In this document: one piece after another, positions 9,127 to 24,470 of the stretch
How the letters are laid out: the number at the start of each line of letters is the position of its first letter
Numbering within the stretch: position 1 is the stretch's first letter
DNA from: Lachnospiraceae bacterium
GTDB taxonomy: Bacteria; Bacillota; Clostridia; Lachnospirales; Lachnospiraceae
DNA: 64,000 bases
Direction: 5' to 3'
Assembly: GCA_017624855.1 (NCBI GenBank)
Contig: JAGAMF010000010.1
Location: 1 to 64,000, forward strand
The notes under the pieces: model-generated
Seen by the model: only the letters and a program-made list of their open reading frames with translations
Told to the model about the DNA's origin: nothing
Databases searched by the model: none
Position numbers and translations under genes: made by a program

Positions 9127-9155
9127 TTGGATTATGTTTATTCTTTTGATATAAT
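9127..9155 (+). promoter_or_regulatory. Promoter of the 90-residue gene
   Basis: TTGGAT, 17-base spacer, TATAAT with extended TG (TGATATAAT). Confidence 0.75.
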
Positions 9156-9240
9156 GATGATTCGGATAACACTATAACAATTTGCCCCTTTTCGCATTAC
9201 TATAGCGATTCCATTAAATATAATCTGCCGAGGTGATACC

Positions 9241-10050: not shown

Positions 10051-10174
10051 AACTTTTTATGTCCTCCGTTTCCATTACCTTCTGTTTTCCAATCAATTGA
10101 AATTTCAAATCTTTGGATACGGAGTTATTATGTGGAAATTTTATGGAATTATACCATGAGATTGACAACGCTTT

Positions 10175-11524
10175 TTACTGTAATTTATCTTTTATATCAT
10201 TTTTCTGATAATATATTTTCTTCTCTTCGTACATACGGCTGTCCGCTTCGTAAAGCTGCTCTTTTATATGCACATTTTCATCCCTCCAGCTGCTGCCGAT
10301 GGAAATTTCAATATCCGCTTCCGCCATCTTTTCACGCAATTTTTCGGTTTTTTCCGCCAATTCCGCTTCCTCTGCATCAACAAGAATAGCCACGAACTCA
10401 TCACCGCCGATTCGATAGGTATCCTCGCCAAAAACCTTTTTAAAAATTTTAGCCGTATTTTTAATCAGTTTATCGCCGTAATCATGCCCCAAAGTATCAT
10501 TGGCTTTTTTCAAACCGTTTAAGTCCATATAAATAATACCCAGCTTCTCGGGAGGACGCTTTTTCAAGGCATTGCGCACCTCATTATAGCGGTTACGGTT
10601 ATTCAACTTAGTTAATGTATCTTCATAACTTAAACGCTCCAACTGCTCCATAACACGGCGTTTCTCCAAGTCGTTCTGAATAAAGTACAACACCGAAGTA
10701 AGCAAGTCAAAGTCTACAATGTTATCCGCAGGATCGTCAACGCCCAAAAATCCTACGATTTCGTTATCTTTTACCACCGGCACGGCCAAAAGGCTTCTGA
10801 TTCCCTGAGCCTCTAAAATACGATATGTAGATGTTTCTTTTGATACATCCGCATCCAAATCAGAGATATAAAACATCCCCTTCTCATTAAACATATCCAA
10901 AAAAGGTTGAGTCGCTTCCATAGGCACATTTTGCAAATTATCCAATTGCGCAGTAACGCCTTTCGCTACCCATTCATAGGTATTGGATGTGGTTTGCGCC
11001 TGATAATCGATTTCAAACAGGTAAGTTCTGTTTGCTTTGTAGTAATCACCGATAATGGCAAACAGATTGTTTATCGCATCCTTAACTTTTAACTTTAATT
11101 CCAAAGTCTTGGCACAACGGATAAGCACGCGCTCACGCTTCAACTGATGCAGGGTATCTTCCTGCGCCTTAATCTGCTCTGTAACTTCATCTGCAATTTC
11201 CAAGTATAAAATTTTATCTTCTACTTCAATGGATTTCCAACGAACCCGAAAATACTCGTCATGCTCCTCATTGTGATACAACACATTGGTAAAACGCTTC
11301 GTATCACACCCTCCGCAGCTACGGCAATTCTCGCAGGAATGGCTGATTTCCCGCAAAACTTCATGACACTTTTTACCAATATAAGAGTCATCATCCTCAG
11401 CCAAACCGACTTTCTTCTTCATCTCGCCGTTCATATATACAAGTGCGCAATCCTTGGTATCTGCCACAAATACCAAACTGCCGCATTCTTCCGGAATTCT
11501 TGATTTTAATGTATCTAAAAGCAT
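10175..11524 (-). CDS. PAS-GAF-GGDEF diguanylate cyclase
   Basis: Predicted soluble enzyme of 449 residues that joins two GTP into cyclic di-GMP. It has a PAS-like sensor at about 10-130, a linker helix, a GAF domain at about 150-295 and a GGDEF domain at about 300-445. The active-site motif reads YRIGGDEF near residue 373, so it should be active. The RxxD product-inhibition site expected just upstream is missing (FGED instead). The PAS region holds the Cys-rich string SCENCRSCGGCDTKRF near residue 60, suited to metal or redox sensing. The ATG at 11524 is chosen for its GGAGGA site. No membrane segment is present. Confidence 0.9.
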   Translation of the reverse strand: MLLDTLKSRIPEECGSLVFVADTKDCALVYMNGEMKKKVGLAEDDDSYIGKKCHEVLREISHSCENCRSCGGCDTKRFTNVLYHNEEHDEYFRVRWKSIEVEDKILYLEIADEVTEQIKAQEDTLHQLKRERVLIRCAKTLELKLKVKDAINNLFAIIGDYYKANRTYLFEIDYQAQTTSNTYEWVAKGVTAQLDNLQNVPMEATQPFLDMFNEKGMFYISDLDADVSKETSTYRILEAQGIRSLLAVPVVKDNEIVGFLGVDDPADNIVDFDLLTSVLYFIQNDLEKRRVMEQLERLSYEDTLTKLNNRNRYNEVRNALKKRPPEKLGIIYMDLNGLKKANDTLGHDYGDKLIKNTAKIFKKVFGEDTYRIGGDEFVAILVDAEEAELAEKTEKLREKMAEADIEISIGSSWRDENVHIKEQLYEADSRMYEEKKIYYQKNDIKDKLQ

Positions 11525-11698
11525 CTTCTGTCCTCCGTATCCTATGTTTCTCTCAGATAGTTGCATATATCTAAAATATTATACCATAAACCGAGGCATC
11601 CCAAAAACAACTAATTGTTAAAAGAATGTGTTCTGCCATAAAATTATTTTTTACCATTATATCATGAGCAGACAAAGTTATAAAGTAGGACATGATAT

Positions 11699-11732
11699 AC
11701 AAAAAGGACATTCCCAAACGGAAATGTCCTTT
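11699..11732 (-). terminator. Terminator at the end of the fumarase/fumarate reductase cluster
   Basis: Minus strand AAAGGACATTTCC / GGAATGTCCTTTTT with a short loop and a T-run. It is very close in sequence to the hairpin at 2378-2406. Confidence 0.85.
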
Positions 11733-11751
11733 GCATGCTTTCTAAAAGCAA

Positions 11752-12312
11752 TTATTTGTTTTTCTGAGCAAGATATGCTGCTCTACCGTCTTCGTAGAGG
11801 TTCTTTCCTTCGCTGTCAATAATAACAACCAAAGGCATATCTTCCACATACAATTTTCTTAACGCTTCTGCGCCAAGATCTTCATATGCAATAAGTTCGC
11901 ACTTTTTAATACACTTTGCAAGCAATGCGCCGGCACCGCCGATTGCGCCGAAGTAAACACCGTTGTACTTCTTCATTGCTTCAATTACTTCAGGAAGACG
12001 AGCTCCCTTACCAATCATACCTCTTGCGCCAACTGACATCATGGTAGGTGCATAAGCATCCATACGACCGCTGGTTGTAGGGCCTGCAGAACCGATTACC
12101 TGACCGGGCTTAGCAGGTGTAGGACCTACATAGTAGATGGTTGCATCTGTAGGGTCCATGGGAAGAGGCTCACCCTTTGCAAGGGATTCGCACATTCTTT
12201 TATGACCTGCGTCACGGGATGTATAAATGGTACCTGTTAAATAAACGGTATCACCTGCATGTAATGTTTTTGCTAATTCTTCTGTTAAAGGTAATGTAAT
12301 ATGCTTCTCCAT
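11752..12312 (-). CDS. fumB: Class I fumarate hydratase, beta subunit
   Basis: C-terminal subunit of the oxygen-sensitive, iron-sulfur fumarase that interconverts fumarate and malate. 186 residues, the usual size for the split form. Landmarks are GDTVYLTGTIYTSRDAGHKR near 20-40, GSAGPTTSGRMD near 75-86 and GARGMIGKG near 95. Its ATG overlaps the alpha-subunit stop codon by one base, so the two are translationally coupled. It is the last gene of the hdr-flx-frd-transporter-fum run and is followed by an intrinsic terminator. The related L-tartrate dehydratase is possible, but the fumarate reductase context favours fumarase. Confidence 0.93.
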   Translation of the reverse strand: MEKHITLPLTEELAKTLHAGDTVYLTGTIYTSRDAGHKRMCESLAKGEPLPMDPTDATIYYVGPTPAKPGQVIGSAGPTTSGRMDAYAPTMMSVGARGMIGKGARLPEVIEAMKKYNGVYFGAIGGAGALLAKCIKKCELIAYEDLGAEALRKLYVEDMPLVVIIDSEGKNLYEDGRAAYLAQKNK

Positions 12313-13154
12313 TAGATCACCTCCGATTTATGACGGGTTACATGGCAGTTAATGTTAATTGCGCAAGGCATACCTGCAATGTGTGTGGGTAAGGTTTCAA
12401 TGTTAAGACCGATTGCTGTGGTTCTTCCACCGAAGCCCTGAGGTCCGATACCAAGTTCGTTAATCTTTTCAAGCATTTCTTTTTCAAGGTCTGCATAGTA
12501 AGGATCGGGATTCTCAGAATCGATAGGACGCATCAATGCCTTCTTAGCAAGCAATGCAGCCTTATCAAAAGTACCGCCGATACCAACACCTACTACCATG
12601 GGAGGGCAGGGGTTGGGGCCTGCTGTTTCAACAGTCTCAATGATAAAATCCTTGATACCTTCAATACCGTGAGAAGGTTTGAACATTCTGATGGCACTCA
12701 TGTTTTCACTACCAAAGCCCTTAGGACCAACGGTAATTTTTACATTTTCACCGGGAACGATTTCTGTATAAATCATAGCAGGTGTGTTATCGCCTGTGTT
12801 ACCGCGTCTTACGGGATCTTTTACTACGGATTTTCTTAAGTATCCTTTATCGTAACCGCGACGAACACCTTCGTTGATTGCATCTGTCAAGTCACCGCCT
12901 ACGAAGTGAACATCCTGACCGATCTCTAAGAATACACAAGCCATACCTGTATCCTGGCAAATGGGCACATTTTCATTGTCTGCGATTTCAAAGTTTTCGA
13001 TGATATTGTCCAAAACACCCTTTGCAATTTCACCGTCTTCACAAGCACGGCAGTTCTTGATGGCACATTTTACATCTTCGGGAAGATGAGTGTTGGCATC
13101 AATGCAAAGCTTTTCAACAACATCCGTAACATTACTTACATTAATTTCACGCAT
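12312..13154 (-). CDS. fumA: Class I fumarate hydratase, alpha subunit
   Basis: N-terminal, [4Fe-4S]-bearing subunit of the two-part fumarase, 280 residues. Cluster-ligand candidates are the Cys in VPICQDTGMA near residue 65, NPCPP near 185 and the C-terminal ININCHVTRH. The start at 13154 is chosen because AAGGAGAG lies just upstream; an earlier in-frame ATG lacks a site. It overlaps the beta subunit by one base. The 98-base gap to the transporter holds a hairpin (13187-13247), so transcript level may drop here. In the cluster it would supply fumarate to FrdAB or remove it in the other direction. Confidence 0.93.
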   Translation of the reverse strand: MREINVSNVTDVVEKLCIDANTHLPEDVKCAIKNCRACEDGEIAKGVLDNIIENFEIADNENVPICQDTGMACVFLEIGQDVHFVGGDLTDAINEGVRRGYDKGYLRKSVVKDPVRRGNTGDNTPAMIYTEIVPGENVKITVGPKGFGSENMSAIRMFKPSHGIEGIKDFIIETVETAGPNPCPPMVVGVGIGGTFDKAALLAKKALMRPIDSENPDPYYADLEKEMLEKINELGIGPQGFGGRTTAIGLNIETLPTHIAGMPCAININCHVTRHKSEVI

Positions 13155-13186
13155 GGTTTTCTCTCCTTTTAGAATAGTTTTAATGG

Positions 13187-13247
13187 GAGCATTGTACATT
13201 CTCAAAATCGCGTCTTACGACGCTTTCCTCACAAACTTGCAATGCTC
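13187..13247 (-). repeat. Intergenic two-tier hairpin between transporter and fumA
   Basis: Outer arms GAGCATTG / CAATGCTC enclose an inner stem GCGTC / GACGC with a 4-base loop. No T-run follows, so it looks like an mRNA processing or stability element. It shares a 14-base edge (TGCANNGCTCTGAA on the plus strand) with the hairpin at 23450-23515. Confidence 0.6.
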
Positions 13248-13252
13248 TGAAA

Positions 13253-14509
13253 TTAGAATAAAATAATCAAGAACTGTGATACAAGCACAACAGAGATTAA
13301 TGCGATAGGATATGTAGCTGCATAAGCTGCTGCAACATCTTCTGTTCCTGCTGTGTTGATTAAGGTTCCGAGAGCGGGGGTACTTGTCATACCGCCTGTG
13401 ATGGAACCAAGGTTGTTAAGAAGACTTAACTTAACAACATATTTTGCGAAGATGAATCCGAGAATCATAGGAACGATTGTCATGATTACACCGTATACAA
13501 AATATAAAATATGGAACTGTGCCACGAATTCAGCGCCGCCCGGAATACCTGCACCGATTAAGAAAAGCATAAGTCCCAATTCACGGAACACTTTAAGGGT
13601 TGCTTCGGGGGGCGTAAAACTGATTTTGCCGATTCTTCCAAAGTGACCAAACACGAGAGACATTAACAAACATCCGCCTGTTGTAGTCAATGCAAATGTT
13701 GTTCCGCTTAATCCCTGTGCGCTTAAAGGAATCTTAATCATACCTACGAAAATACCGCATACTGCTGCGAGAGCAAAAGGTGCAATTCCAAAGCCGTCAA
13801 GTTCAATTAATTTGCCGTCATATTTCTTTGATTCACCGTCAGAAGCCTGAACCAATTTCGCTCTTTCTTCTTCCATATTGGCTTTCATAAACTTAGGCAT
13901 AAGCTGTACAAAAAGTACTACACCGATAACACCGAAAAGATATGCAATACCGTGACCTACGGATACAACACTTTCCAAAGAAGCATCTACGGTAGCTTTC
14001 GCCGCTGAGAATGCAGGAGTTGATGTTAAGGAGCCGGAAAGAAGTCCAACCACCATTGCAGTCATCTCATCATGAGGCACATCAGGCTGAAGCCATCTGC
14101 CTAAAAAGATACAACCAACCGCAGCAAGACCACCTGCAATAATAACTACAAGTCCCAATGCAACATATGACTTGAAGTTTTTCTTCATGTTACCGAAGAA
14201 CTTAGGACCTGCAATAAAACCAACTGAGGTAACGAAGAAAATCAAACCGAGGTTCTCGATGATTTTTAACGCGTTTTCTGCATAATTTACTGCAGTACCG
14301 TCAGCCATTTTTACTGTAAGCTGTGCACTCAAGGGCTCGTAGAAAAAGCATCCATAAAGAAGCGCTACGATAAATACGCCGGCTGTACCAAGGTTAACTC
14401 CCTTAATGGAAATACGACCAAGCGCATAACCAACAAAAGTGATAATCAAAAGACTAAACATTAAAAATGTAATTCCCGTAATAGGAATAACACCGCCAAA
14501 AAGTGACAT
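13253..14509 (-). CDS. AspT-type (aspartate:alanine exchanger family) transporter, predicted C4-dicarboxylate carrier
   Basis: Polytopic membrane protein of 418 residues with about ten to twelve hydrophobic helices. Two pseudo-symmetric halves each carry the family signature: SGSLTSTPAFSAA near residue 157 and GGMTSTPALGTL near 380. Family members such as AspT exchange aspartate for alanine, and a succinate exporter is also known in the wider group. This copy is short because it lacks the RCK (TrkA-C) domains usually placed between the halves. Its position between frdA and fumA suggests succinate, fumarate, malate or aspartate as substrates. Substrate and direction are inference. Start follows GAGGAAGG. 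Confidence 0.86.
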   Translation of the reverse strand: MSLFGGVIPITGITFLMFSLLIITFVGYALGRISIKGVNLGTAGVFIVALLYGCFFYEPLSAQLTVKMADGTAVNYAENALKIIENLGLIFFVTSVGFIAGPKFFGNMKKNFKSYVALGLVVIIAGGLAAVGCIFLGRWLQPDVPHDEMTAMVVGLLSGSLTSTPAFSAAKATVDASLESVVSVGHGIAYLFGVIGVVLFVQLMPKFMKANMEEERAKLVQASDGESKKYDGKLIELDGFGIAPFALAAVCGIFVGMIKIPLSAQGLSGTTFALTTTGGCLLMSLVFGHFGRIGKISFTPPEATLKVFRELGLMLFLIGAGIPGGAEFVAQFHILYFVYGVIMTIVPMILGFIFAKYVVKLSLLNNLGSITGGMTSTPALGTLINTAGTEDVAAAYAATYPIALISVVLVSQFLIILF

Positions 14510-14549
14510 AATTTTTTTCCTTCCTCATGCTATATATTTACGCATTGCG

Positions 14550-14578
14550 GGGCGAAAACGCATTTTGCGCCTTCGCCC
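14550..14578 (-). repeat. Hairpin in the frdA-transporter gap
   Basis: Arms GGGCGAA / TTCGCCC around a smaller CGC/GCG stem. It lies in a 113-base gap inside an otherwise tightly packed gene run. No T-run follows, so probably not a terminator. Confidence 0.55.
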
Positions 14579-14622
14579 GACAAAAACATACATTATTTTT
14601 GACCAATTATTTAAATAAAATT

Positions 14623-16224
14623 TTATCTCTCGTGACGAGCATACTTAGGAAGAAGAAGAGGTGAAACATCGTTTGATTCGATGCCTGCTGCCTTTAACTC
14701 TTCTGCATATGCAGCCACATGGTCAATATTCATGGTTCCCAACTCAACTGTCTTCGCCTTAGCTGCTGCAGCCTTACCTGCGTTACGGCCGAATACAATG
14801 ATGTCAAGTAAGGAGTTACCCATAAGACGGTTTCTACCGTGGATACCACCAACAGCTTCACCAGCTACAAGCAAGTTGTCAATTGCCTTGGTAAATCCGT
14901 CGCCGCCGATTTCCAAACCACCGTTCTGGTAGTGAAGTGTAGGATAAATCAAAATGGGTTCTTTTCTCATATCGATGTCGTAGTTTAAGTACATACGAAG
15001 CATCGCAGGAATTCTCTTTTCGATGGTTCCGGGTCCGCCGATCATTTCGATCATGGGAGTATCCAACCATACACCGCTTCCGAGAGGTGTGGTTACACCC
15101 TTACCTCTGTCAGAGCATTCACGAATAATGGATGCTGCTGAAACATCACGGGTCTCAAGGGGATGCATGAATGCTTCACCATCTACGTTAACAAGCATAG
15201 CACCAAGAGAACGAACCTTCTCTGTTACCAACGCACCGAAAATCTGTGCAGGGTATGCAACACCTGTAGGATGATACTGGATTGTATCCTGGTATAAAAG
15301 GGGAGCACCTGCACGGTATCCCAATACCAAACCGTCAGCAGTAGCGCCGTAGTGGTTTGATGTAGGGAAGTTCTGGTAGTGAAGACGGCCTGCACCACCT
15401 GTTGCGATAACAACGGTTTTAGCCTTAGCTACCAAATAGTCGCCGGTTTCCATGTTGAGGAGAACTGCACCTGCAACCTGGCCCTTTTCATCTTTGATTA
15501 ATTCAACTGCTGAAGTAAATTCAACAACGGGAATCTGGCGGTTGATTACTTCGTCACGAAGTGTACGCATGATTTCTGCACCTGAGTAGTCCTTACAAGC
15601 ATGCATACGCTTTCTTGAAGTACCACCACCGTGTGTAGTTACCATTCTTCCGTCTTCGTCCTTATCGAACATAACACCTAATTTGTTTAACCACTGGATT
15701 GCATCGGGAGCTTCCATAACAAGGCGTCTTAAAAGCTCGGGTCTTGCAGCAAAGTGTCCGCCACCGAAAGCATCAAGATAGTGCTGAACGGGTGAATCGT
15801 TCTCTTTGTCAGCTGCCTGAATACCGCCTTCTGCCATCATGGTGTTGGCATCACCGATACGAAGCTTGGTTACGATCATTACATTAGCGCCTGCTTCGTG
15901 TGCTTCGATTGCTGCAGAAGAACCTGCACCACCGCCACCGATAACAAGTACATCAACATCGTAATCTACTTTGCTCAAATCAACCTTATCTGTTAAAAGA
16001 CGGCTGTTTGAGTGAAGAAGGTGTCCTAATTCTGTGGGAACCTTCTGGCCCTTGTTGGGTCCGATTTTAATTTCTACAAATCCATCTTCTCTGTAGTCGG
16101 GATGGTAAGCTTTCAGAAGGGTATCCTTTTCCTCAGCGGTCATACGTCTGGGTTCGGTTTTCATACGTTCTGCTCTGGTTGCTTCCACCTTTTTAATGGA
16201 TTCCTGCATTTCTGCTGTAAACAT
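14623..16224 (-). CDS. frdA: Fumarate reductase-type flavoprotein subunit (soluble FrdA)
   Basis: 533-residue FAD protein predicted to reduce fumarate to succinate in the cytoplasm. Residues 88-110 are the FAD Rossmann motif (VIGGGGAGSSAAIEA). QYHPTG at 316-321 and the Arg-containing segment following 350 match the active site of the FrdA/SdhA/NadB family. RLMGNSLLDIIVFGRNAG near 480 is the C-terminal FAD contact. The residue that carries covalent FAD in membrane FrdA (His) is Asn127 here (ANTMMAEGG), so FAD should be non-covalent. The first ~85 residues are an extension not usual in FrdA, and the C-terminal helical part is shortened. L-aspartate oxidase is an alternative, but the neighbouring frdB argues against it. 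Confidence 0.9.
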   Translation of the reverse strand: MFTAEMQESIKKVEATRAERMKTEPRRMTAEEKDTLLKAYHPDYREDGFVEIKIGPNKGQKVPTELGHLLHSNSRLLTDKVDLSKVDYDVDVLVIGGGGAGSSAAIEAHEAGANVMIVTKLRIGDANTMMAEGGIQAADKENDSPVQHYLDAFGGGHFAARPELLRRLVMEAPDAIQWLNKLGVMFDKDEDGRMVTTHGGGTSRKRMHACKDYSGAEIMRTLRDEVINRQIPVVEFTSAVELIKDEKGQVAGAVLLNMETGDYLVAKAKTVVIATGGAGRLHYQNFPTSNHYGATADGLVLGYRAGAPLLYQDTIQYHPTGVAYPAQIFGALVTEKVRSLGAMLVNVDGEAFMHPLETRDVSAASIIRECSDRGKGVTTPLGSGVWLDTPMIEMIGGPGTIEKRIPAMLRMYLNYDIDMRKEPILIYPTLHYQNGGLEIGGDGFTKAIDNLLVAGEAVGGIHGRNRLMGNSLLDIIVFGRNAGKAAAAKAKTVELGTMNIDHVAAYAEELKAAGIESNDVSPLLLPKYARHER

Positions 16225-16236
16225 ATTTATCCCTCC

Positions 16237-16911
16237 TTATTTTTCAATCTCTCTTGTGTTGTATAATTCCTGCATCTCAGTGATGGGTTTCTGCATAATC
16301 TGCTCGATTAACTCATCATATGCACCACTGTTGATTTCCTCAACACGGTTTGCCAAATGCTCTGTTTCGGGAGCAATGTACTTACCGGTGAGACGTCTTG
16401 CAAGAAGACCAACCATGGGATGAGAAATACCTGCGGGACATCTTACTGAACAGCATCCACAGCTTACACAGTCGAAAGACTCCTCAGCACACTTCTCGAA
16501 TTCGCCTCTCTGAGCATATGCAATGTACTGCATAACATTCAAGTCCTGTGTACAAGCCTTTGTACAAGCATTACATCCGATACAGCTGTAGATTTCAGGA
16601 TAAAGTTCCATCATAATCTGCTGTGTAGGCTTAATTTCATTAATGTCATATGTTCTCTTGTCAGTAGGGAAGAAGGGAATGCTTGCTACATACATACCTT
16701 CCTCAACCTGTGTCTGACATGCAAGACAGGTTTTTAACTCGTTCTTGCCTTTAATTCTGTAAATAGTTGCACATGCACCACAGAAACCGTGACGGCAGCC
16801 GCATCCTCTGTTTAAGGTATAGCCGGCATATTCCATAGCTGTCATGATTGTTAAATCTGCAGGTACACTGTATTTCTTACCAAAAAAGTATACATTTACC
16901 ATATTTTCCAT
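16237..16911 (-). CDS. frdB: Fumarate reductase-type iron-sulfur subunit (FrdB-like)
   Basis: 224-residue electron-transfer protein. The N-terminal [2Fe-2S] domain has CRHGFCGAC near 39-47 and a CLAC pair near 62. The C-terminal half has two cluster motifs, CIGCNACTKAC near 111 and CVSCGCCSVRCP near 147. No hydrophobic anchor and no frdC/frdD gene accompany it, so the enzyme should be soluble. Archaeal TfrB has the same FrdB-like half fused to an HdrB-like CCG domain. Here that domain is absent, but a separate hdrB lies in the same cluster, which fits HdrBC passing electrons to this subunit. The start follows AAAGGAC at a somewhat long spacing. Confidence 0.9.
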   Translation of the reverse strand: MENMVNVYFFGKKYSVPADLTIMTAMEYAGYTLNRGCGCRHGFCGACATIYRIKGKNELKTCLACQTQVEEGMYVASIPFFPTDKRTYDINEIKPTQQIMMELYPEIYSCIGCNACTKACTQDLNVMQYIAYAQRGEFEKCAEESFDCVSCGCCSVRCPAGISHPMVGLLARRLTGKYIAPETEHLANRVEEINSGAYDELIEQIMQKPITEMQELYNTREIEK

Positions 16912-16949
16912 TTTGGAATACCAGTCCTTTCGTTTTTTATAAAAGCCTC

Positions 16950-17804
16950 TTAATACTCGTTAGGCAGCTCATCGATTTCGTCGAAACGGAATACGGGGCC
17001 GTCCTTACATACATATTTAGAACCAATGTTACAACGTCCACACTTACCGATACCGCACTTCATACGAAGTTCGAAGGTTGTGTAAATCTGTTCATCCTTG
17101 AAACCTAATTCCTTAAGTCCCTGAAGAACGAACTTAATCATGATAGGCGGTCCGCAGACAAGAACTGTTTTATCTGTAGAGAATTCCAGCTCTTTTAAGT
17201 ATGCAGGTACGAAACCTACATGTCCGTCCCAGCCTTCCTGTTCACGGTCGATGGTTAAGTGTACATTAACACCTTCCGTCTTCATCCACAATTCCTGGAT
17301 TTCTTTTAACTGAACCAGGTCATCAGCGGAACGTGAACCGTAAAGGATATCGATGGTTCCGTAATTCGCTCTGTTATCAATTGCATAATTGATTACGGAA
17401 CGAAGAGGCGCAAGACCGATACCACCGGCGATGAATAAAAGGTTCTTGCCTTTTAATTCGGTTTCAACCGGGAAATGATTTCCGTAAGGTCCTCTTACGG
17501 TAATTTCATCACCAACCTGGAGGCTGTGAAGATAATCTGTAAGCTGACCGCATTTTTTGATACTGAACTCCTGGAATTCCTTATTCGTAGGAGATGATGT
17601 AATAGAGAACATTGCCTCACTTACGCCGGGAGCACATAACATTGCACACTGACCGGGCATATGCTCAAATAACTTACCGCCTTCGGGAGCGTTTACACGG
17701 AATGTTTTAACATCCGGTGTCTCCTGACGGATATCTGTAATTACACCAACCTTAGGAATCAAAGTGTCCAGTTCATAATTGGTATGACAATTGCATTCAC
17801 ACAT
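16950..17804 (-). CDS. flxA: FlxA-like FAD/NAD(P)H-binding oxidoreductase subunit
   Basis: 284 residues, of the AsrB/HydG/FlxA family. It has an FAD domain at about 15-105, an NAD-binding domain at about 110-240 (LLFIAGGIGLAPLRS, CGPPIMI), and a C-terminal [2Fe-2S] site MKCGIGKCGRCNIG with a last Cys in VCKDG near 250-268. It should take hydride from NADH and split it into single electrons. The N-terminus is unusually rich in Cys (MCECNCH). It overlaps flxB by one base. In Desulfovibrio FlxABCD-HdrABC this subunit is the NADH port; the same role is inferred here. Confidence 0.92.
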   Translation of the reverse strand: MCECNCHTNYELDTLIPKVGVITDIRQETPDVKTFRVNAPEGGKLFEHMPGQCAMLCAPGVSEAMFSITSSPTNKEFQEFSIKKCGQLTDYLHSLQVGDEITVRGPYGNHFPVETELKGKNLLFIAGGIGLAPLRSVINYAIDNRANYGTIDILYGSRSADDLVQLKEIQELWMKTEGVNVHLTIDREQEGWDGHVGFVPAYLKELEFSTDKTVLVCGPPIMIKFVLQGLKELGFKDEQIYTTFELRMKCGIGKCGRCNIGSKYVCKDGPVFRFDEIDELPNEY

Positions 17805-18835
17805 TATTCATTACCTCCCTGATTCTCAAAAGCTTTAATTACTTTTACAATGTTTAAGGATGAAGGACACTTGTCAACACAACGTCCGCAACCTACGCAT
17901 GAGTACATGCCGTCATTGTTTGCAGGGAAGTATACCAACTTATGCATGAATCTCTGACGGAATCTCTGCATCTGGCTTGTACGGTTGTTACCGTGAGCCA
18001 TCATTGTAAAATCTGAGTACATACATGAGTCCCAGCAACGATAACGCTGTACGCCGTGACCTGTATCATAATCCTTAATGTCATAGCACTGGCAGGTAGG
18101 ACATACGAAGGTACAAGTACCACAAGCCAAGCAGGGCTTGTAAAGCTCTTCCCAAACGGGAGAGTCGAACTTCTCCATAAGTACATCGCCGTTCCAGCCT
18201 TCCAAGGAAAGATCAGAGTAAGGAAGTTTCTCAACGATAGCGCGGATAGCTGCCTTTTCTTCTTCTACCTTAGCTTCATCAGCATTAACAAGTAATGATT
18301 CAACAGCCTTGGTTAATGCTTCACCCTTTTCAGTAATGGCTTTCCAGTAAAGTTCACCGTCAATCATCCATGTTGCAACATCGGCAACGGGATCTGCACA
18401 GTCTGTACCGAATACCTTACAGAAGCAGGTTTCTTCGGGCTCATGACATGCCAAAGCAACAATTGTGCCATGTGCACGTCTTGCAGCATAAAAGGTATCT
18501 ACGGGGTCTGCAAGGAATACCTTGTCTAAAACCTCTACACCCTTAATATCGCAAGCCTTCATACCGAATACTACAAAGTTCTGTGACTGTAATTCTTCGG
18601 GGGTAATTTTGATCTTTTTATCTTCTTTTGTACAAGTGTATAAGTTTTCACTCTGAGGGAAAAATGCGTCCTTAGCGGATTTTACGGTTTTTAATGTATC
18701 CAAATCCACATCTGCTTCTTCCGACCAGTAACCGAAGTTTGTCTGGTTTGCCACTTTTACGGGAAGAATCAATTCATTGTTTTCCGCAATCTTGGAGAAT
18801 AATGCGGAAAGATTTTCTTTTGCTATCTTAAACAT
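17804..18835 (-). CDS. flxB: FlxB-like 4Fe-4S protein (AsrA/HydB family)
   Basis: 343 residues. The N-terminal ~220 residues match the AsrA/sulfhydrogenase beta-type fold (KACDIKGVEVLD). The C-terminal part carries two [4Fe-4S] motifs, CLACGTCTFVCP near 232 and CVGCGRCVDKCP near 312, with extra Cys in TCQC and WDSC between them. It should relay electrons between FlxA and FlxC/MvhD. An AGAAAGGAGA site precedes the ATG, three bases after flxC. Sulfite reductase (AsrABC) is an alternative reading, but no asrC is present and the hdr genes favour Flx. Confidence 0.88.
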   Translation of the reverse strand: MFKIAKENLSALFSKIAENNELILPVKVANQTNFGYWSEEADVDLDTLKTVKSAKDAFFPQSENLYTCTKEDKKIKITPEELQSQNFVVFGMKACDIKGVEVLDKVFLADPVDTFYAARRAHGTIVALACHEPEETCFCKVFGTDCADPVADVATWMIDGELYWKAITEKGEALTKAVESLLVNADEAKVEEEKAAIRAIVEKLPYSDLSLEGWNGDVLMEKFDSPVWEELYKPCLACGTCTFVCPTCQCYDIKDYDTGHGVQRYRCWDSCMYSDFTMMAHGNNRTSQMQRFRQRFMHKLVYFPANNDGMYSCVGCGRCVDKCPSSLNIVKVIKAFENQGGNE

Positions 18836-18838
18836 ACA

Positions 18839-19813
18839 TTATCTCCTTTCTGTTACGATGCTGGGTTCGCAATCTTCAAATGTAAAGTTGGTAAGAGGTC
18901 CTCTTGCTTCGCTGTCGGCACCGGCCTGGAACTCACCATAAAATTCGTTAATGTCCTTAATGAACTTACGGTTGAACAAGTGAAGAGGAATACCCTGAGG
19001 GCATACGCGGCTACATTCGCCACAGTCTGTACATCTGCCTGCCACATGGAATGCACGGATAATGTGGAACATCTTCTCTTCGAAAGAATCCACATTTGCC
19101 TTCTGTGCGGTATCAAACTTGGTACTGTCGAATACACACTTACGGCAGCTGCATGCAGGACAAACATTTCTACAAGCATTGCAACGGATACATTTGCTTA
19201 ATTCGTTACGGAAGAAAGCAAACTTCTCTTCGGGGCTCATTGCCTCAATTCTCTCTACCTCTGCAAATCTCTCTGCATCCTTGGTATCTTTTGATTCACC
19301 GATGATTTCATCGTAAATCATGTGTTCCTTGCCCTTACATACATGACATCTTTCAAGCATTGCCTCTGCATAAGAGCAGGTCTTTTCACCGTAAAGGGTC
19401 TGAATGGTTAAAGTATCGCAAGCGTCAGACATTTCAGCACCGGAAATACTCTGGATACCTTTGATGCCTTTTTCTTTGATTTTATCAATATTCAATTTAC
19501 CCTTGCAGCCTACACCTACGATGTAAGCCTTTTCACGGTCAACACGGTGTTCCTTAATCAACTGATTAAAGCTGTATGTATCACAAGGCTTTAAACATAC
19601 CATGGTCTTGCCTTCCAACTTAGAAGCTTCGATCATGTATTTGCTAAGGTTCGCACCACAGAATCCGTTATATACGAAATTGTCTAATTCTTCAGCGCTA
19701 GTGAAGTAAGCCGGTTCAGGATTGTAAGGCAAATCACCGGCTTTCCAGCCAAGTACACGAACTACGGTACCGTCGGCAAGAAGTTCTTTTGCGCGGTTCA
19801 CTAATTCTTGCAT
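18839..19813 (-). CDS. flxC: FlxC-like 4Fe-4S protein (FdhB/FrhB-related)
   Basis: 324 residues. The first ~200 residues resemble the coenzyme F420 hydrogenase/FdhB beta-type domain (KPCDTYSFNQLI, VGVGCKGKLN). Two ferredoxin-type motifs follow: CIRCNACRNVCPACSCRKC near 208 and CTDCGECSRVCP near 261. The start overlaps mvhD by 13 bases, so translation is coupled. Shared layout with FlxB suggests paired relay subunits. The exact partner order in the complex is inferred from the Desulfovibrio FlxABCD model. Confidence 0.87.
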   Translation of the reverse strand: MQELVNRAKELLADGTVVRVLGWKAGDLPYNPEPAYFTSAEELDNFVYNGFCGANLSKYMIEASKLEGKTMVCLKPCDTYSFNQLIKEHRVDREKAYIVGVGCKGKLNIDKIKEKGIKGIQSISGAEMSDACDTLTIQTLYGEKTCSYAEAMLERCHVCKGKEHMIYDEIIGESKDTKDAERFAEVERIEAMSPEEKFAFFRNELSKCIRCNACRNVCPACSCRKCVFDSTKFDTAQKANVDSFEEKMFHIIRAFHVAGRCTDCGECSRVCPQGIPLHLFNRKFIKDINEFYGEFQAGADSEARGPLTNFTFEDCEPSIVTERR

Positions 19814-20238
19814 CTTAAATCCTCCAATCTTACGTTTTCACCAAGAGAGTGGATTTTCTCTACGAATTCATTCATAGTTGTAGAGAACTTCACACCTTCT
19901 GCAGCAGATACCCATTCAACACGGGTACGGCCGTTTTCCACACCGATATAATCAAGCATGGAGAATAATAATGTCATACGTCTTCTTGCGTAGTAATTAC
20001 CTGTGCTGTAATGGCAGTCTCCGGGGTGGCAACCACACATGATAACGCCATCTGCACCCTTCTGGAATGCACGAAGGATGAACATAGGATTTACACGGCA
20101 TGAACACGGTACACGAATAATTTTAACATCAGCAGGATATGCCAAACGGCTGCTACCTGCAAGGTCAGCACCTGCATAACTACACCAGTTACAGCAGAAT
20201 GCAACAATTTTAGGTCTAAATTCTTTTTCTATCGACAT
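19801..20238 (-). CDS. flxD: MvhD/FlxD-type [2Fe-2S] electron-transfer protein
   Basis: 145 residues, full length for MvhD. The cluster-binding Cys lie in FCCNWCSYAGAD near 14-25, VPCSCRVN near 44 and MCGCHPGDCHY near 67. In methanogens MvhD links hydrogenase to HdrA; in Flx systems the same subunit links the NADH module to HdrA. It overlaps the hdrA stop by 10 bases and flxC by 13, so stoichiometric expression with its partners is likely. The start follows GGAGGTGG. Confidence 0.93.
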   Translation of the reverse strand: MSIEKEFRPKIVAFCCNWCSYAGADLAGSSRLAYPADVKIIRVPCSCRVNPMFILRAFQKGADGVIMCGCHPGDCHYSTGNYYARRRMTLLFSMLDYIGVENGRTRVEWVSAAEGVKFSTTMNEFVEKIHSLGENVRLEDLRCKN

Positions 20239-22217
20239 ATCGCATCCACCTCCGCAAGAATCTGTCTGTTAGAGAATCCCTGAAGGTCCATAGCACCTGA
20301 AGGACAAACAACGGTACAAGCACCACAACCCTGACAGAGTGCGTTGTTAACAACAGCGATTCTTCTGTCTTCACGGATACCGTGGTCATTTACCTGTTTC
20401 ACTTCATAAGTGATTGCACCGTAAGGACAAACATTAGCACATGTTGAACATCCGTTACACATAAGCTCGTCAGCCTTTGCTGTACAAGGGTTGGTCATCA
20501 GCTTATCTTTTGCAAGAAGGCCGATTGCCTTAACCGCAGCAGCACCTGCCTGAGCAACAGTTTCGGGAATATCCTTAGGTCCCTGACATACGCCTGATAA
20601 AAATACACCTGCTGTAGGAGATTCTACAGGACGAAGCTTGGGATGTGCTTCTGTAAGGAAATTATTGGTATCAATACTTGCTGTAAGCATTGTTGCAATC
20701 TTTCTTACGGAAGGATCGGGCTCGATTGCAGTTGCAAGAACTACCATATCAGCCTCTTTTAAAATCTGCTTATTGTCGATTAAGTCTGCACCCTGTACCA
20801 AAAGCTTACCATTGGGAAGAGGAGCAACCTTACCAACCTGACCCTTAATGTAATTTACGCCGTACTCTTCAACCGCTCTTCTGTAGAACTCATCGAAGTT
20901 CTTACCGGGTGTACGCACATCAATGTAAAATACGGTTACGTTTACATCGGGATACTTGTCACGAATTAACATTGCATGCTTAGCTGTGTACATACAACAA
21001 ATCTTAGAACAGTAGCTCTTACCTCTGTTGTCTGCGCAACGGCTGCCTACACACTGAATGAATACCATCTCCTTGGGAGCCTTACCGTCTGAGAGACGCT
21101 CTAAATGACCCTTTGTAGGTCCTGCAGCGTTCATGATACGCTCTAATTCAAGAGAAGTGATAACATCCTTGCTCTGGCTGTATGCATATTCATCGTACTT
21201 GTCAAGCTTGATGGTATCAAAACCGGTAGCAACTACGATTGCGCCGTACTTTTCGGTAATGATTTCATCCTGCTGTGCATAATCGATTGCACCTGCCTGA
21301 CAAACCTTTTCACATAAACCACACTTGCCGGTCTTGAATTTAAGACATGCATCGCGGTCAATTACAGGCACATTGGGAATAGCCTGTGCAAAAGGAGTGT
21401 AGATTGCGCTTCTTGTGTTAAGACCGCGGTTGAACTCGCTGGGAGCCTTTTTAGAAGGACATTTCTCCTGGCAAACACCACAACCTGTACACTTATTCAT
21501 ATCTACGCTTCTTGCTTTTTTACGAATATCTACGGTAAAGTCACCAACGAAACCGGTAACCTTTTCTACTTCACTGTAAGTATAGATATTGATCTTCTCA
21601 TGAGCAGACGCTTCCACCATCTTCGGTGTAAGGATACATGCTGAACAGTCCAATGTGGGGAATGTCTTGTCTAACTGTGACATTCTACCGCCGATACTGG
21701 GAGTCTTTTCAACGATATCTACTTCATAACCTGCATCTGCAATATCAATTGCAGTCTGAATACCTGCAATACCGCCACCGATAACCAATGCACGCTTGGT
21801 TACACGGCTCTCGCCGGGCTGAAGAGGAGCATTTAAGTTAACCTTAGCAATCGCTGCTCTTGCAAGAATAACAGCCTTCTTGGTTGCCTCTTCCATATCT
21901 TTATGTATCCATGAACAATGTTCACGAATGTTGGCAATTTCTACCATGTAAGGATTTACGCCGGCACGCTCAGCAGCCTTACGGAAGGTTGCTTCATGCA
22001 TACGGGGTGAACAGGAACATACAACGATTCCTGTTAATCCTTTTTCTTTTACTGCTTCGAGAATCTTAGCCTGACCTGCTTCAGAACACATATACTGGTA
22101 ATCTTCTGCATGGACAACGCCGGGCTCTAACAGTGCCATTTCAACTACTTTTTTAACATCTACCGTAGCGGCAATGTTGCTACCGCAGTGGCAGACAAAT
22201 ACACCTATCCTCTGCAC
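20229..22217 (-). CDS. hdrA: Heterodisulfide reductase subunit A-like flavoprotein
   Basis: 662 residues, normal HdrA size, cytoplasmic. In order: an N-terminal domain with VCHCGSN and CSCSPRMHE, an FAD thioredoxin-reductase fold (VIGGGIAGIQ near 143), an inserted ferredoxin with CTGCGVCQEKCP near 243, CGLC/VCQAGA near 300, CSKICCMY near 405, and a C-terminal ferredoxin with CNGCSTCANVCP near 586 and CQGCGACTVVCP near 630. In methanogens this FAD is the site of electron bifurcation to ferredoxin and heterodisulfide. GTG start behind GGAGG. No selenocysteine is present. Bifurcation here is inferred from family, not shown. Confidence 0.95.
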   Translation of the reverse strand: MQRIGVFVCHCGSNIAATVDVKKVVEMALLEPGVVHAEDYQYMCSEAGQAKILEAVKEKGLTGIVVCSCSPRMHEATFRKAAERAGVNPYMVEIANIREHCSWIHKDMEEATKKAVILARAAIAKVNLNAPLQPGESRVTKRALVIGGGIAGIQTAIDIADAGYEVDIVEKTPSIGGRMSQLDKTFPTLDCSACILTPKMVEASAHEKINIYTYSEVEKVTGFVGDFTVDIRKKARSVDMNKCTGCGVCQEKCPSKKAPSEFNRGLNTRSAIYTPFAQAIPNVPVIDRDACLKFKTGKCGLCEKVCQAGAIDYAQQDEIITEKYGAIVVATGFDTIKLDKYDEYAYSQSKDVITSLELERIMNAAGPTKGHLERLSDGKAPKEMVFIQCVGSRCADNRGKSYCSKICCMYTAKHAMLIRDKYPDVNVTVFYIDVRTPGKNFDEFYRRAVEEYGVNYIKGQVGKVAPLPNGKLLVQGADLIDNKQILKEADMVVLATAIEPDPSVRKIATMLTASIDTNNFLTEAHPKLRPVESPTAGVFLSGVCQGPKDIPETVAQAGAAAVKAIGLLAKDKLMTNPCTAKADELMCNGCSTCANVCPYGAITYEVKQVNDHGIREDRRIAVVNNALCQGCGACTVVCPSGAMDLQGFSNRQILAEVDAICR

Positions 22218-22223
22218 TTGAAC

Positions 22224-22613
22224 TTACCTCCTGTATCTTCTGAATGCACTTACCAATAACTGCTGAGGCAGATCCGGATCAAGAAGTTCCGGAATTTCAT
22301 TGGGTGACAGGTAATCCTGTCCCTTCTGACGCACAACAACCTGTCTTGCTGCATCGATTAACTTGCCGGGCTTAACATCTCTGGGGCAACGCTCAACACA
22401 TGCAAAACATGAAAGGCATTTCCATAATGATTTAGAATTAACGAGAGATTCAATATCTTCGTTTACTACATATGATACAAACTGATGAGGTTTGATGTCC
22501 ATTTCGTTGTAGGAAGGACAAGATGCGGAACACTTACCGCACTTCATACACTTAAGAGGATTCACGCCGCTGATTTCTTTAATCTGTTCAGCCTGTTTTT
22601 TAGCTGTATTCAT
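22224..22613 (-). CDS. hdrC: Heterodisulfide reductase subunit C-like 2x[4Fe-4S] protein
   Basis: 129-residue soluble electron carrier between HdrA and HdrB. The two ferredoxin motifs are complete: KCMKCGKCSASCP at 21-33 and KCLSCFACVERCP at 65-77, with the RDVKPGK stretch typical of HdrC after the second. Its ATG overlaps the hdrB stop by one base, and hdrA follows after six bases. No membrane segment is present, unlike HdrE-linked forms, which supports a soluble complex. Confidence 0.94.
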   Translation of the reverse strand: MNTAKKQAEQIKEISGVNPLKCMKCGKCSASCPSYNEMDIKPHQFVSYVVNEDIESLVNSKSLWKCLSCFACVERCPRDVKPGKLIDAARQVVVRQKGQDYLSPNEIPELLDPDLPQQLLVSAFRRYRR

Positions 22614-23407
22614 TACTTAGCCACCTCCTCTTTTACTCCTAAAGCTTCTGCAAGTAACTCTGTAAAGTAAACTACGGGAAGCTTGTCATTGCCGTTTTTC
22701 TTTAAGTTGTAAAGACATAAAGGACAAGCTGTAATAAGCATTTCTGCTCCCATACCGTCTGCGCTGTCCATAATGCGTTCGCACATAGACTTAGACATGT
22801 CTTTTTCTTTTAAAGAAATGTAGCCGCCGCAACATTCGTTACGATAAGGATACACAACGGGCTCTGCGCCGATTGCACGGATAAAATCCTCGATGATAGT
22901 AGGATTCTCGGGATTATCAAATTCCAGAATCTTGCCGGGGCGAAGAAGGAGGCATCCATAGTATGCACCAATCTTCTTTCCTGTAAGAGGATTTACTACC
23001 TTTTCTTTGATCTTATCGAATCCAACGCGGTCACGGAGTACTTCCAAAAAGTGAAGCACTTCTGTTTCACCTGCATAGGGTTCTTCTAACTGCATGTAAT
23101 TGTTGGCTCTGGTACGAATGTCGTCCACATTCTTCATGTCGTCGTTTACACGCTTAATAACATGATGACATGCTGAACATAAGGTTACCAGATCCTGACC
23201 TTTTTCCTTTGCCTCATTTAAGGCACGAACAGAAGAAAGCTTGCTTGCGATTTCATCGGAGCCCAAAGGGTAAACTCCACCACAACACTGCCAGTTTTCG
23301 ATTTCTTCCAGTTCGAATCCCAAAGCAACCGCAGAAGCTCTTGCATATGCATCCAAGTCTTTTGCCTTGGTTCTAAGGGTACATCCCGGATAGTAACTGT
23401 ACTTCAT
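22613..23407 (-). CDS. hdrB: Heterodisulfide reductase subunit B-like CCG-domain protein
   Basis: 264 residues with two CCG domains. The first has Cys9, Cys41-Cys42, Cys77 and Cys80 (PGC, QCCGG, CSAC). The second has Cys152, Cys192-Cys193, Cys228 and Cys231 (YGC, ECCGG, CPLC). All ligands for the paired non-cubane [4Fe-4S] clusters of HdrB are present. In methanogens they cleave CoM-S-S-CoB. This bacterium is unlikely to have that substrate, and frdAB in the same run makes the FrdB subunit a plausible acceptor. The ATG at 23407 follows AAAGGAC; an in-frame ATG seven codons earlier has no site. First gene of the tight hdr-flx-frd run. Confidence 0.93.
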   Translation of the reverse strand: MKYSYYPGCTLRTKAKDLDAYARASAVALGFELEEIENWQCCGGVYPLGSDEIASKLSSVRALNEAKEKGQDLVTLCSACHHVIKRVNDDMKNVDDIRTRANNYMQLEEPYAGETEVLHFLEVLRDRVGFDKIKEKVVNPLTGKKIGAYYGCLLLRPGKILEFDNPENPTIIEDFIRAIGAEPVVYPYRNECCGGYISLKEKDMSKSMCERIMDSADGMGAEMLITACPLCLYNLKKNGNDKLPVVYFTELLAEALGVKEEVAK

Positions 23408-23449
23408 AGTTCTATTGTCCTTTCCCATATTATAGTAAAAAGTATTTCA

Positions 23450-23515
23450 ACCATTCAGAGCCTATTCGCATAATCGTCAGCTCGCGGCTTTTGAATCTGC
23501 ACGGCTCTGAACGGT
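23450..23515 (-). repeat. Large hairpin between the dehydrogenase gene and hdrB
   Basis: Arms ACCGTTCAGAGCC / GGCTCTGAATGGT pair over 13 bp with one wobble, around a 40-base loop. No T-run follows, so readthrough from the dehydrogenase promoter into hdrB seems possible. A TATAAT occurs on the minus strand just after it, but without a convincing -35. Confidence 0.7.
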
Positions 23516-23522
23516 AAATATA

Positions 23523-24470
23523 TTATAATTCAATCTGAGCAATAACTTCTTTTAATGCATCTGCACTTGCTTTTAACTTAGCAATTTCTTCGTCGGTTAA
23601 CTTCACGGGAACCTTACCCTGAATACCCTTAGGTCCAACCAATGTTAATGTACTTACACAAACATCTTCGATACCGTATTCACCATGCATCATAGAAGAT
23701 ACGGTTGCCATAGATTCGTCAGAAGCTGCCAAAATAGCGCAAAGTGCACAAACAGATGCTGAAACCGCATAGAAGGTTGCACCCTTGTTTGCAATTACCT
23801 GTCCGCCTGATTTACGTACATAAGTAATCATAGCTTCCTTATCTACTTCTTTTACATCCTTATCGATGTTCTTAACAAGTTCTACATACTCGTCTGCAGG
23901 TACACCGCACACATTTGCGATTGACCAGGGAATGAATGATGTATCACCGTGCTCACCGAATACATATGCGTGAATGTTCTTCTGTGCAATGCTGTAATGC
24001 TCAGAAAGTCCGCAACGAAGACGAGCAGTATCAAGAATTGTACCTGAACCGATTACCTGATTCTCGGGAAGTCCTGAAATCTTGGTAAATACATAAGTCA
24101 TAATGTCAACCGGGTTACTTACGATAATGTAAAGTGCGTTGGGTGCATACTTTACGATTTCGGGTGTAATGCTCTTTAAAATGTTAACATTGGTCTGTGT
24201 AAGCTCAATTCTTGTCTGACCGGGCTTACGAGCGATACCTGAAGTAATAATAACGATATCGGAATCTGTTGCATCCACATATTCACCTGCGGTGATTTTA
24301 ATGGGATTACGGAAGCAGGTACCCTGCTCGATATCCATTACTTCTCCTTCTACTTTCTGCTTGTTAATATCAATCAGAACGATTTCTGAGGCGATATCCT
24401 GCTGAGAAAGTGTGTACGCAATTGTGGAACCTACGCTACCGGCTCCAATGATTGTGATTTTTTTGCTCAT
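23523..24470 (-). CDS. LDH/MDH-superfamily NAD-dependent dehydrogenase, specificity residue as in malate dehydrogenase
   Basis: 315-residue cytoplasmic enzyme reducing a 2-oxoacid with NADH. GAGSVGS at 10-16 binds NAD. Catalytic residues are all present: Arg87, Asp147, Arg150 and His174 (GEHGDT). The overall sequence is L-lactate dehydrogenase-like (GSGTILDTAR, KGATFYA). However, the residue aligned to Gln102 of LDH, which sets substrate choice, is Arg81 (GIARKPGQTR), the malate/oxaloacetate-type residue. So oxaloacetate to malate is the likelier reaction, in line with the neighbouring fumarase and fumarate reductase. Lactate dehydrogenase remains possible because the Thr at the other specificity site is LDH-like. 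It has its own promoter with a Rex-like operator. Confidence 0.85.
   Translation of the reverse strand: MSKKITIIGAGSVGSTIAYTLSQQDIASEIVLIDINKQKVEGEVMDIEQGTCFRNPIKITAGEYVDATDSDIVIITSGIARKPGQTRIELTQTNVNILKSITPEIVKYAPNALYIIVSNPVDIMTYVFTKISGLPENQVIGSGTILDTARLRCGLSEHYSIAQKNIHAYVFGEHGDTSFIPWSIANVCGVPADEYVELVKNIDKDVKEVDKEAMITYVRKSGGQVIANKGATFYAVSASVCALCAILAASDESMATVSSMMHGEYGIEDVCVSTLTLVGPKGIQGKVPVKLTDEEIAKLKASADALKEVIAQIEL

Follow-up and report, generated by a model that had tools for sequence, protein, structure and literature searches.

Organization of the operon

This report concerns an operon of the Lachnospiraceae bacterium assembly GCA_017624855.1 in which genes for heterodisulfide reductase (Hdr) and Flx subunits are combined with genes for a fumarate reductase (Frd), as noted in a stretch of 64,000 nucleotides from contig JAGAMF010000010.1 (the window). 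The list of open reading frames (ORFs) of the window indicated a single minus-strand operon that runs, from high to low coordinates, from position 24470 to position 11752 in the order mdh–hdrBCA–mvhD–flxCBA–frdBA–aspT–fumAB (Table 1), with the ORFs of all genes intact. The junctions from hdrB to frdA, taken in order, measured -1, 6, -10, -13, 3, -1, 38 and 12 bp (i.e., four overlaps and a maximum gap of 38 bp), which bears out a preliminary description of this DNA, according to which hdrB-hdrC-hdrA-mvhD-flxC-flxB-flxA-frdB-frdA lie on one strand with overlaps or gaps under 40 bases. The outer gaps were wider, 94 bp between mdh and hdrB, 113 bp between frdA and aspT and 47 bp between aspT and fumA, the last becoming 98 bp with a downstream ATG of fumA at which the NCBIfam match begins (likely start near 13154); there is a 1-bp overlap between fumA and fumB. 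The AspT-type transporter and fumAB genes that had been placed after frdA were likewise present as intact ORFs, with family assignments in agreement.

Table 1. Genes and features of the operon, in order of transcription.
Gene or feature	Predicted product or character	Position	Strand	Matches and motifs
mdh	Probable NAD-dependent malate dehydrogenase of LDH-like family	23523..24470	-	Pfam Ldh_1_N/C; R81
hdrB	CCG protein, two non-cubane cluster sites	22613..23428	-	PF02754 twice
hdrC	Two CxxCxxCxxxC [4Fe-4S] motifs	22224..22613	-	Fer4_8, Fer4_17
hdrA	FAD bifurcation subunit with ferredoxin domains	20229..22217	-	Full-length match to 5odc_A HdrA, 679 bits
mvhD/flxD	[2Fe-2S] adaptor to HdrA	19801..20238	-	PF02662, 183 bits
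flxC	Fe-S adaptor, resembles FdhB of Hdr-formate dehydrogenase complexes	18839..19813	-	9t1s_M, 7bkb_E, 8rvu_E
flxB	Fe-S subunit, sulfhydrogenase beta-like	17804..18835	-	Fer4_22; 9nez_B, 161 bits
flxA	FAD/NAD(P)H diaphorase	16950..17804	-	NAD_binding_1, FAD_binding_6, DHODB_Fe-S_bind
frdB	Electron-transfer subunit: one [2Fe-2S], two [4Fe-4S]	16237..16911	-	12 invariant Cys
frdA	Fumarate reductase flavoprotein	14623..16224	-	FAD_binding_2, 238 bits; aligned to 3p4p_A FrdA
aspT	AspT-family carrier	13253..14509	-	Two PF06826 blocks
fumA	Class I fumarase alpha	12312..13205	-	PRK06246, 426 bits (cut-off 276)
fumB	Class I fumarase beta	11752..12312	-	PRK06842, 285 bits (cut-off 238); PF05683
Hairpin	Terminator-like	11703..11732	-	13-pair stem, T-rich tail, 19 bases 3' of fumB

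Predicted properties of the operon products

The full set of subunits of a FlxABCD-HdrABC module was found in the one cluster. HdrA retained the Fe-S motifs of HdrA from the MvhAGD-HdrABC complex (5odc_A), and K413 of this protein aligned with 5odc K409, a residue that we take to lie at the bifurcating flavin. Thus, every feature of a bifurcating HdrA that was looked for in the sequence (full length, FAD domain, Fe-S motifs and the K409 equivalent) was present, and HdrA is predicted to belong to this type. In HdrB, ten CCG-type cysteines occupied the two expected non-cubane cluster sites and were invariant in 11 aligned sequences. Scores of this protein against HdrB chains of the PDB were 139–155 bits, and the best NCBIfam match was to MfrE/SdhE, the CCG partner of methylmenaquinol:fumarate reductase (145 bits), followed by CoB-CoM HdrB (138 bits), both far under the cut-off. 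FlxC scored 87 bits against 9t1s_M, 76 bits against 7bkb_E and 74 bits against 8rvu_E. A line of electron transfer from NADH through FlxA, FlxB, FlxC and MvhD to HdrA, in that predicted order, is plausible from these assignments.

The 12 cysteines of FrdB, invariant in 22 sequences, comprised four for a [2Fe-2S] cluster and two full CxxCxxCxxxC motifs. Subunit B of quinone-linked enzymes has a canonical [2Fe-2S], [4Fe-4S], [3Fe-4S] ligand pattern; given the two full motifs, two [4Fe-4S] clusters are expected in FrdB instead of the [4Fe-4S]/[3Fe-4S] pair. No CCG domain was found in this 224-residue protein, which scored 29.6 bits against the TfrB model (cut-off 385; best stretch 12-82 only), and in view of the missing TfrB-type thiol domain a protein electron donor should be needed. 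An AlphaFold2 model of FrdB had a mean predicted local distance difference test score of 83.7 and a predicted template modelling score of 0.60, the weakest residues (40-42) being inside the [2Fe-2S] loop.

FrdA was aligned with 3p4p_A, which we take to be FrdA of Escherichia coli, and with 1nek_A SdhA. Residues H318, E335, R359, H431 and R466 were invariant, and T334 nearly so, in 22 sequences from across the phylum; these six positions presumably correspond to the catalytic residues of the E. coli enzyme, so that FrdA would carry the His, Thr-Glu, Arg, His, Arg set of a fumarate reductase flavoprotein. N127 stands at the position of the covalent-FAD His, and non-covalent FAD is expected. Matches to Pfam started at residue 89 or later (FAD_binding_2 covers 91-472), which leaves roughly the first 88 residues as an N-terminal extension; Pfam gave no match to a further domain at the C-terminus. 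The best NCBIfam match of FrdA was to the TfrA model, at 335 bits against a cut-off of 718.

Three other assignments were considered and ruled out. Membership of the thiol:fumarate reductases (TfrAB) was rejected because both the TfrA and the TfrB cut-off were missed and the CCG domain was missing, and a quinone-linked fumarate reductase because no SdhC-type anchor was over the cut-off and the cluster motifs of FrdB differ. FrdA was rejected as an aspartate oxidase since a separate NadB (535 bits, cut-off 472) is encoded between nadC and nadA in the same genome and since the partners of frdA are frdB, the fumarase genes and the Hdr-Flx block.

The dehydrogenase noted previously just upstream of hdrB was found there, but its identity had to be corrected. 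Thus, the protein matched the L-lactate dehydrogenase (L-LDH) model PRK00066 of NCBIfam (349 bits, cut-off 339), whereas R81 occupies the position that, as we understand it, separates malate dehydrogenase (Arg) from lactate dehydrogenase (Gln). Arginine was present at this position in 89 of 90 matched loci, a set in which some genomes are counted twice and some copies are not directly adjacent to the operon, and the remaining sequence was truncated there. The gene product is therefore probably a malate dehydrogenase that is systematically mis-named or mis-scored as L-LDH. For the AspT-family carrier, nothing besides PF06826 was matched at E <= 1e-5 and no RCK domain was found; a role as succinate exporter or exchanger is probable.

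Conservation of the operon among Clostridia

Strong matches to FrdB (E < 1e-30) were noted in 19 of 199 other genomes of the family, indicating a patchy distribution of the operon. The series hdrBCA-mvhD-flxCBA-frdBA was complete and ordered in 16 of these loci (L035-L050), including one in which hdrA was in two pieces (L036), and the other three ended at contig ends. A search of genome contigs gave at least 546 confirmed related loci, of which the best 80 were analysed, a set that consists for this reason of close relatives. Among these best 80, the order hdrBCA-mvhD-flxCBA-frdB was present in 60/60 loci with more than 8.5 kb of upstream sequence (dehydrogenase in 51/60), and frdA came next in 59/59 loci with more than 6.5 kb downstream, accompanied by fumAB in 58/59 and by an AspT homologue in 33/59.

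At the level of the class, 393 genomes (the window's own and those with a completeness of 90% or more) were compared at thresholds of E <= 1e-25 for FrdB and E <= 1e-20 for HdrB. Both proteins were found in the identical 54 genomes and neither in the other 339 (Fisher p ~8e-68). HdrB and FrdB shared a contig, 2.5-6.9 kb apart, in 47 of the 54 genomes, and in each of the remaining seven, all of which were checked, the operon was split by contig ends. The wider context was compared in 24 of the 53 other class genomes, in 23 of which the sequence upstream of frdBA, to the limit of the contig, carried flx/hdr genes; in locus L247 of this class, frdBA came first and hdrBCA-mvhD-flxCBA after. Moreover, no Clostridia locus of sufficient length lacked hdrA, mvhD or the NADH module. 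Across 34 loci of the family and class, frdB diverged in step with the seven hdr/flx genes (r 0.71-0.86), to much the same degree as with frdA (0.85). The family, best-80 and class sets overlap in part and some genomes appear twice, the loci coming from dozens of separate assemblies.

An accidental neighbourhood or an assembly artefact might be suggested by the state of the window's genome, which is 74.5% complete and holds a redundant contig (described below). This explanation has virtually no probability left and is already refuted by the synteny data, i.e., by the same order in 16 family loci and in 60 of the best-80 loci from separate assemblies and by the occurrence of HdrB with FrdB in 54 class genomes. 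Adjacency of the operon genes is not a matter of chance, and the operon looks, from these comparisons, to be widespread in gut Clostridia and inherited as a unit. Carriers include genomes of Blautia luti, B. wexlerae, B. schinkii and Faecalicatena contorta, among others. The arrangement in B. luti MSK.16.34 (L120) was hdrBCA-mvhD-flxCBA-frdBA-fumAB, with dehydrogenase and AspT matches absent from the stretch compared.

Contexts of frdBA outside the Clostridia

In the phylum, 39 of 398 genomes, one of them the window's own, had FrdB; the other 38 were all outside the class, and 33 of their loci were analysed, with labels assigned from tblastn context and position and some members checked against Pfam. 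A full Hdr-Flx set stood next to frdBA in five of the 33 (after frdBA in four, before it in one), so that the adjacency which the preliminary description had proposed as a test, strongly kept in the class, held only this far outside it. HdrCB alone accompanied frdBA in another five loci, and HdrA-like proteins with MvhD in eight, in six of which hdrC-hdrB were visible as well. FMN-binding Fer4 proteins were present in two loci and a cytochrome b561-ferredoxin fusion in two (all four checked). In seven loci, fumAB and malic enzyme preceded frdBA with no recognised donor (malic enzyme checked in five, i.e., L191, L192, L195, L210 and L218), and no recognised donor context was seen in the last four.

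Some of these contexts were noted individually. In L200, frdBA was preceded by hdrCBA, a 1092-residue HdrA-like pyridine-nucleotide oxidoreductase protein (10284-13562), the identity of which was checked in this locus, and a 472-residue protein (8673-10091) that had no Pfam or NCBIfam match at the thresholds used; the context resembled that of L200 in L201, L203, L209 and L219-L222. Proteins with FMN-binding and Fer4 domains lay near frdBA at L197:8778-12394 and L205:8076-9113, and are possibly a further electron input; a 536-residue protein near frdBA in L197 had no family match. The ferredoxin-cytochrome b561 fusion was directly 3' of frdBA at L206:5327-6313 and L208:5353-6342, where it would make a soluble-type FrdBA pair membrane-linked.

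In a tree of FrdA plus FrdB (FastTree, midpoint root, 57 of 59 sequences, several weak nodes), contexts were largely clade-specific. Five loci with Hdr-Flx after frdBA formed one clade with support of 1.0, apart from other Clostridia loci, and L204 was placed elsewhere with weak support. The range of contexts argues that Hdr is not universally required, and favours a constant core with an exchangeable donor.

Genome context

RnfC scored over the cut-off in 18 of 20 operon-bearing genomes (not in G007 and G507), and the complete set rnfCDGEAB was present in the window's own genome. The SdhC-type anchor model Sdh_cyt was over its cut-off in none of the 20, FrdC- and FrdD-specific models not having been run, and gave one sub-threshold match, in a B. 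wexlerae genome; no membrane anchor gene (SdhC/D or FrdC/D) was found in the operon itself. Phosphoenolpyruvate (PEP) carboxykinase was detected in 18/20 of these genomes, three of the matches being weak, and FeFe hydrogenase in 20/20. In the window's genome no second CCG protein was found, an absence that is weak given its completeness, and the only other strong FrdA-like matches were NadB and a duplicate contig. The latter (G000:C8, locus L033) is a 21-kb contig of the same assembly with a second frdB match, 99.96% identical to window positions 4039-17186 over the 13.1 kb examined. This identity speaks against a second copy of the operon; the contig is most likely redundant, and the sequence probably reflects strain variation or assembly redundancy.

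Terminator-like sites in the whole scan numbered 15 against 10.8 expected (standard deviation 4.1), barely over chance, and promoter-like sites numbered 23 against 28.8 expected from shuffles, with no excess over chance. Genes for a GGDEF diguanylate cyclase (10175-11566) and a SpoVT regulator (9508-10050) lie downstream of the operon in the window, with no link to it established.

Comparison with known systems

The FlxABCD-HdrABC of Desulfovibrio vulgaris, which Ramos in 2015 reportedly linked, by title, to ethanol metabolism, is made up of the same seven subunits and presumably takes electrons from NADH; it is associated with thiol/DsrC chemistry and, to our knowledge, has no fixed frdBA partner. 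In TfrAB of methanogens, FrdB-like and CCG parts work together, the CCG domain being fused in TfrB, whereas in the present operon HdrB is encoded on its own, alongside HdrA, HdrC and Flx subunits. The HdrABC core, MvhD and an FdhB-like adaptor (FlxC) are shared with the HdrABC-MvhAGD and HdrABC-Fdh complexes (5odc, 7bkb, 8rvu, 9t1s), which use H2 or formate as donor and CoM-S-S-CoB as acceptor, in contrast with NADH (via FlxAB) and FrdBA as predicted here. Catalytic residues of FrdA are shared with quinol:fumarate reductase and complex II; unlike these, the operon has no membrane anchor, no covalent-FAD His and no [3Fe-4S] pattern in FrdB.

The closest precedent is the "succinate operon" of Pseudoclostridium thermosuccinogenes, an operon of the same kind for which the same bifurcation hypothesis was put forward (PMC7282089, citing as reference 15 the 2019 preprint 10.20944/preprints201912.0288.v1). 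By description, the type is that found here, i.e., fumarase, a Flx-Hdr block (RS03360-30), fumarate reductase under two locus tags and a candidate transporter for succinate; the comparison is one of description and not of sequence, this species being absent from the best 80 loci, and in P. thermosuccinogenes the fumarase is at the opposite end of the locus and the legend lists no malate dehydrogenase. The case made there is a proposal with transcript data, and no purified enzyme was described in the text consulted (PMC7282089). CO2 limitation raised expression of the operon about 4-fold, although the increase did not reach significance for every subunit, and the authors cite earlier work in which succinate formation all but ceased in the presence of H2, a result that they read as fitting. 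In gammaproteobacterial tubeworm symbionts, tfrAB occurs with flxABCD-hdrABC in reductive tricarboxylic acid cycle clusters, interspersed with korABCD and carbon fixation genes, and direct electron transfer from Hdr-Flx to Tfr has been proposed (PMC6315080, PMC11636981).

For B. luti, Trischler and Mueller 2026 assayed extracts with reduced methyl viologen as donor, obtaining fumarate reductase activities of 0.50-0.99 U/mg that were higher after growth on sorbitol or maltose, and found frdAB to be highly transcribed (PMC12773636). The words Hdr, heterodisulfide and Flx are absent from the main text of that article, and strain MSK.16.34 is perhaps not the strain used in it. No purified complex of the present composition was found in the literature searched, which did not extend to most subscription journals or bioRxiv preprints. 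The earlier statement that no characterised complex of this kind was known therefore stands, but not the novelty it implied, since operon type and hypothesis are in print (PMC7282089).

Proposed mechanism and alternatives

The operon encodes, in the reading that we consider probable from its sequence, a soluble NADH-oxidising, flavin-bifurcating fumarate reductase together with a feeder path. Oxaloacetate from PEP carboxykinase would be converted to fumarate by malate dehydrogenase and fumarase. FlxA would accept hydride from NADH, with FlxB, FlxC and MvhD relaying electrons to the FAD of HdrA, where each pair would be split: one electron would go to ferredoxin, and its partner would travel via HdrC and HdrB straight into FrdB and on to FrdA and fumarate. 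The net reaction would be 2 NADH + fumarate + Fdox -> 2 NAD+ + succinate + Fdred(2-), where Fd is ferredoxin. Rnf would return the ferredoxin electrons to NAD+ with ion pumping, and the AspT-type carrier would probably export succinate. Computed free energies for the bifurcating reaction of about -33 to -53 kJ/mol, for ferredoxin at -500 to -400 mV, indicate that bifurcation is energetically allowed. Also in favour of this reading are the identical distribution of HdrB and FrdB, the conserved gene order and its recurrence, with frdBA placed first, in a separate clade, the parallel divergence of frdB and the hdr/flx genes, the full-length match of HdrA to HdrA of solved complexes, the expected requirement of FrdB for a protein donor, the presence of Rnf, the lack of another strong FrdA-like protein besides NadB in the window's genome and the responses of P. 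thermosuccinogenes to CO2 limitation and H2. An NADH-driven, ferredoxin-reducing soluble reductase had been put forward in the preliminary description; all of its parts were present and no SdhC-type anchor was above the cut-off, while bifurcation and assembly into one complex, which we infer, go beyond the evidence of sequence. The observation is confirmed, and the interpretation, which is partly supported, is likely to be right, though it is not new as an idea.

Several points weigh against this reading. No biochemical demonstration of ferredoxin reduction coupled to fumarate was found in the literature searched. The correlation of frdB divergence with that of the hdr/flx genes carries no species-tree control, and most sampled genomes of family and class are without the operon. 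No hdr gene was seen in the available stretch of 15 of the 33 outside-class loci (L191, L192, L210, L223 and L225 being truncated on one side), from which it seems that FrdBA does not in principle need Hdr. In P. thermosuccinogenes, Na2S, which lowers the redox potential, acted opposite to H2, a result called confusing by the authors (PMC7282089), and expression of tfrAB in the tubeworm symbiont did not parallel that of the Hdr-Flx cluster (PMC11636981).

Transfer of electrons from NADH to fumarate at standard state, in addition, already releases about 68 kJ/mol, which would fit a complex of the same composition in which HdrA does not bifurcate and the energy is lost as heat, and the enzyme of B. 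luti was indeed modelled as a plain NADH-dependent fumarate reductase (PMC12773636). Such a reductase would have no need of the hdrA and mvhD genes that all sufficiently long Clostridia loci carry, and the Fe-S motifs seen in HdrA of bifurcating complexes are retained here; we regard this possibility as unlikely.

Retention of all ten CCG-type cysteines in HdrB would also agree with reduction by Hdr-Flx of a diffusible disulfide, whether a small thiol or a DsrC-like protein, with FrdBA fed by that thiol or by another carrier. Flx-Hdr is described as an electron route to ferredoxin and thiols (PMC7282089), and for the tubeworm symbiont a path by way of a DsrC-like protein has been offered as one of two possibilities (PMC11636981). 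However, FrdB, unlike TfrB, has no thiol-oxidising CCG domain, HdrB is as close by score to the fumarate reductase partner MfrE/SdhE as to HdrB, and HdrB and FrdB occur one to one in the class sample, which makes a diffusible intermediate decidedly unlikely.

Hdr complexes are reversible in principle, and frdBA was without an NADH module in view in some loci of other classes. Fumarate reduction might accordingly be driven by reduced ferredoxin, or by ferredoxin and NADH (confurcation), or the operon might serve succinate oxidation. With fumarate/succinate at +33 mV, use of ferredoxin only would waste energy, and the reverse flow, to NAD+ and ferredoxin, would have to run uphill; the NADH module, moreover, was retained in all sufficiently long Clostridia loci, and succinate is excreted by B. 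luti (PMC12773636). These schemes are accordingly very improbable.

Taken with the contexts outside the class, the preferred reading can be widened to a two-part proposition, which we judge somewhat likelier to be true than false as a whole. Thus, frdBA would be a portable soluble core with an input exchanged between lineages (Hdr-Flx, HdrCB alone, the 1092-residue HdrA-like protein with MvhD, an FMN-binding ferredoxin-like protein or a cytochrome b-ferredoxin fusion), and in gut Clostridia, including cultivated Blautia, it would have become fixed in the form of a bifurcating NADH:ferredoxin,fumarate enzyme of nine subunits, through which succinate formation is coupled with Rnf.

Implications

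New in this analysis are the tight co-inheritance of the operon in Clostridia, the exchange of electron donors at frdBA in other classes and the finding of the operon in a B. luti genome. Because the operon is carried by named cultivable species, the 2019 proposal is directly testable. If the bifurcating reading is true, succinate formation would conserve energy in gut Clostridia with the operon, without a membrane enzyme. The gain would be about 0.56 ATP more per succinate, or about 0.23 ATP per glucose at the B. luti yield of 0.42, based on B. luti values of 2 H+ per 2 electrons at Rnf and 3.6 H+ per ATP (PMC12773636), and the published energy balance of B. luti would change. Moreover, H2 pressure and ferredoxin load would be predicted to control succinate output.

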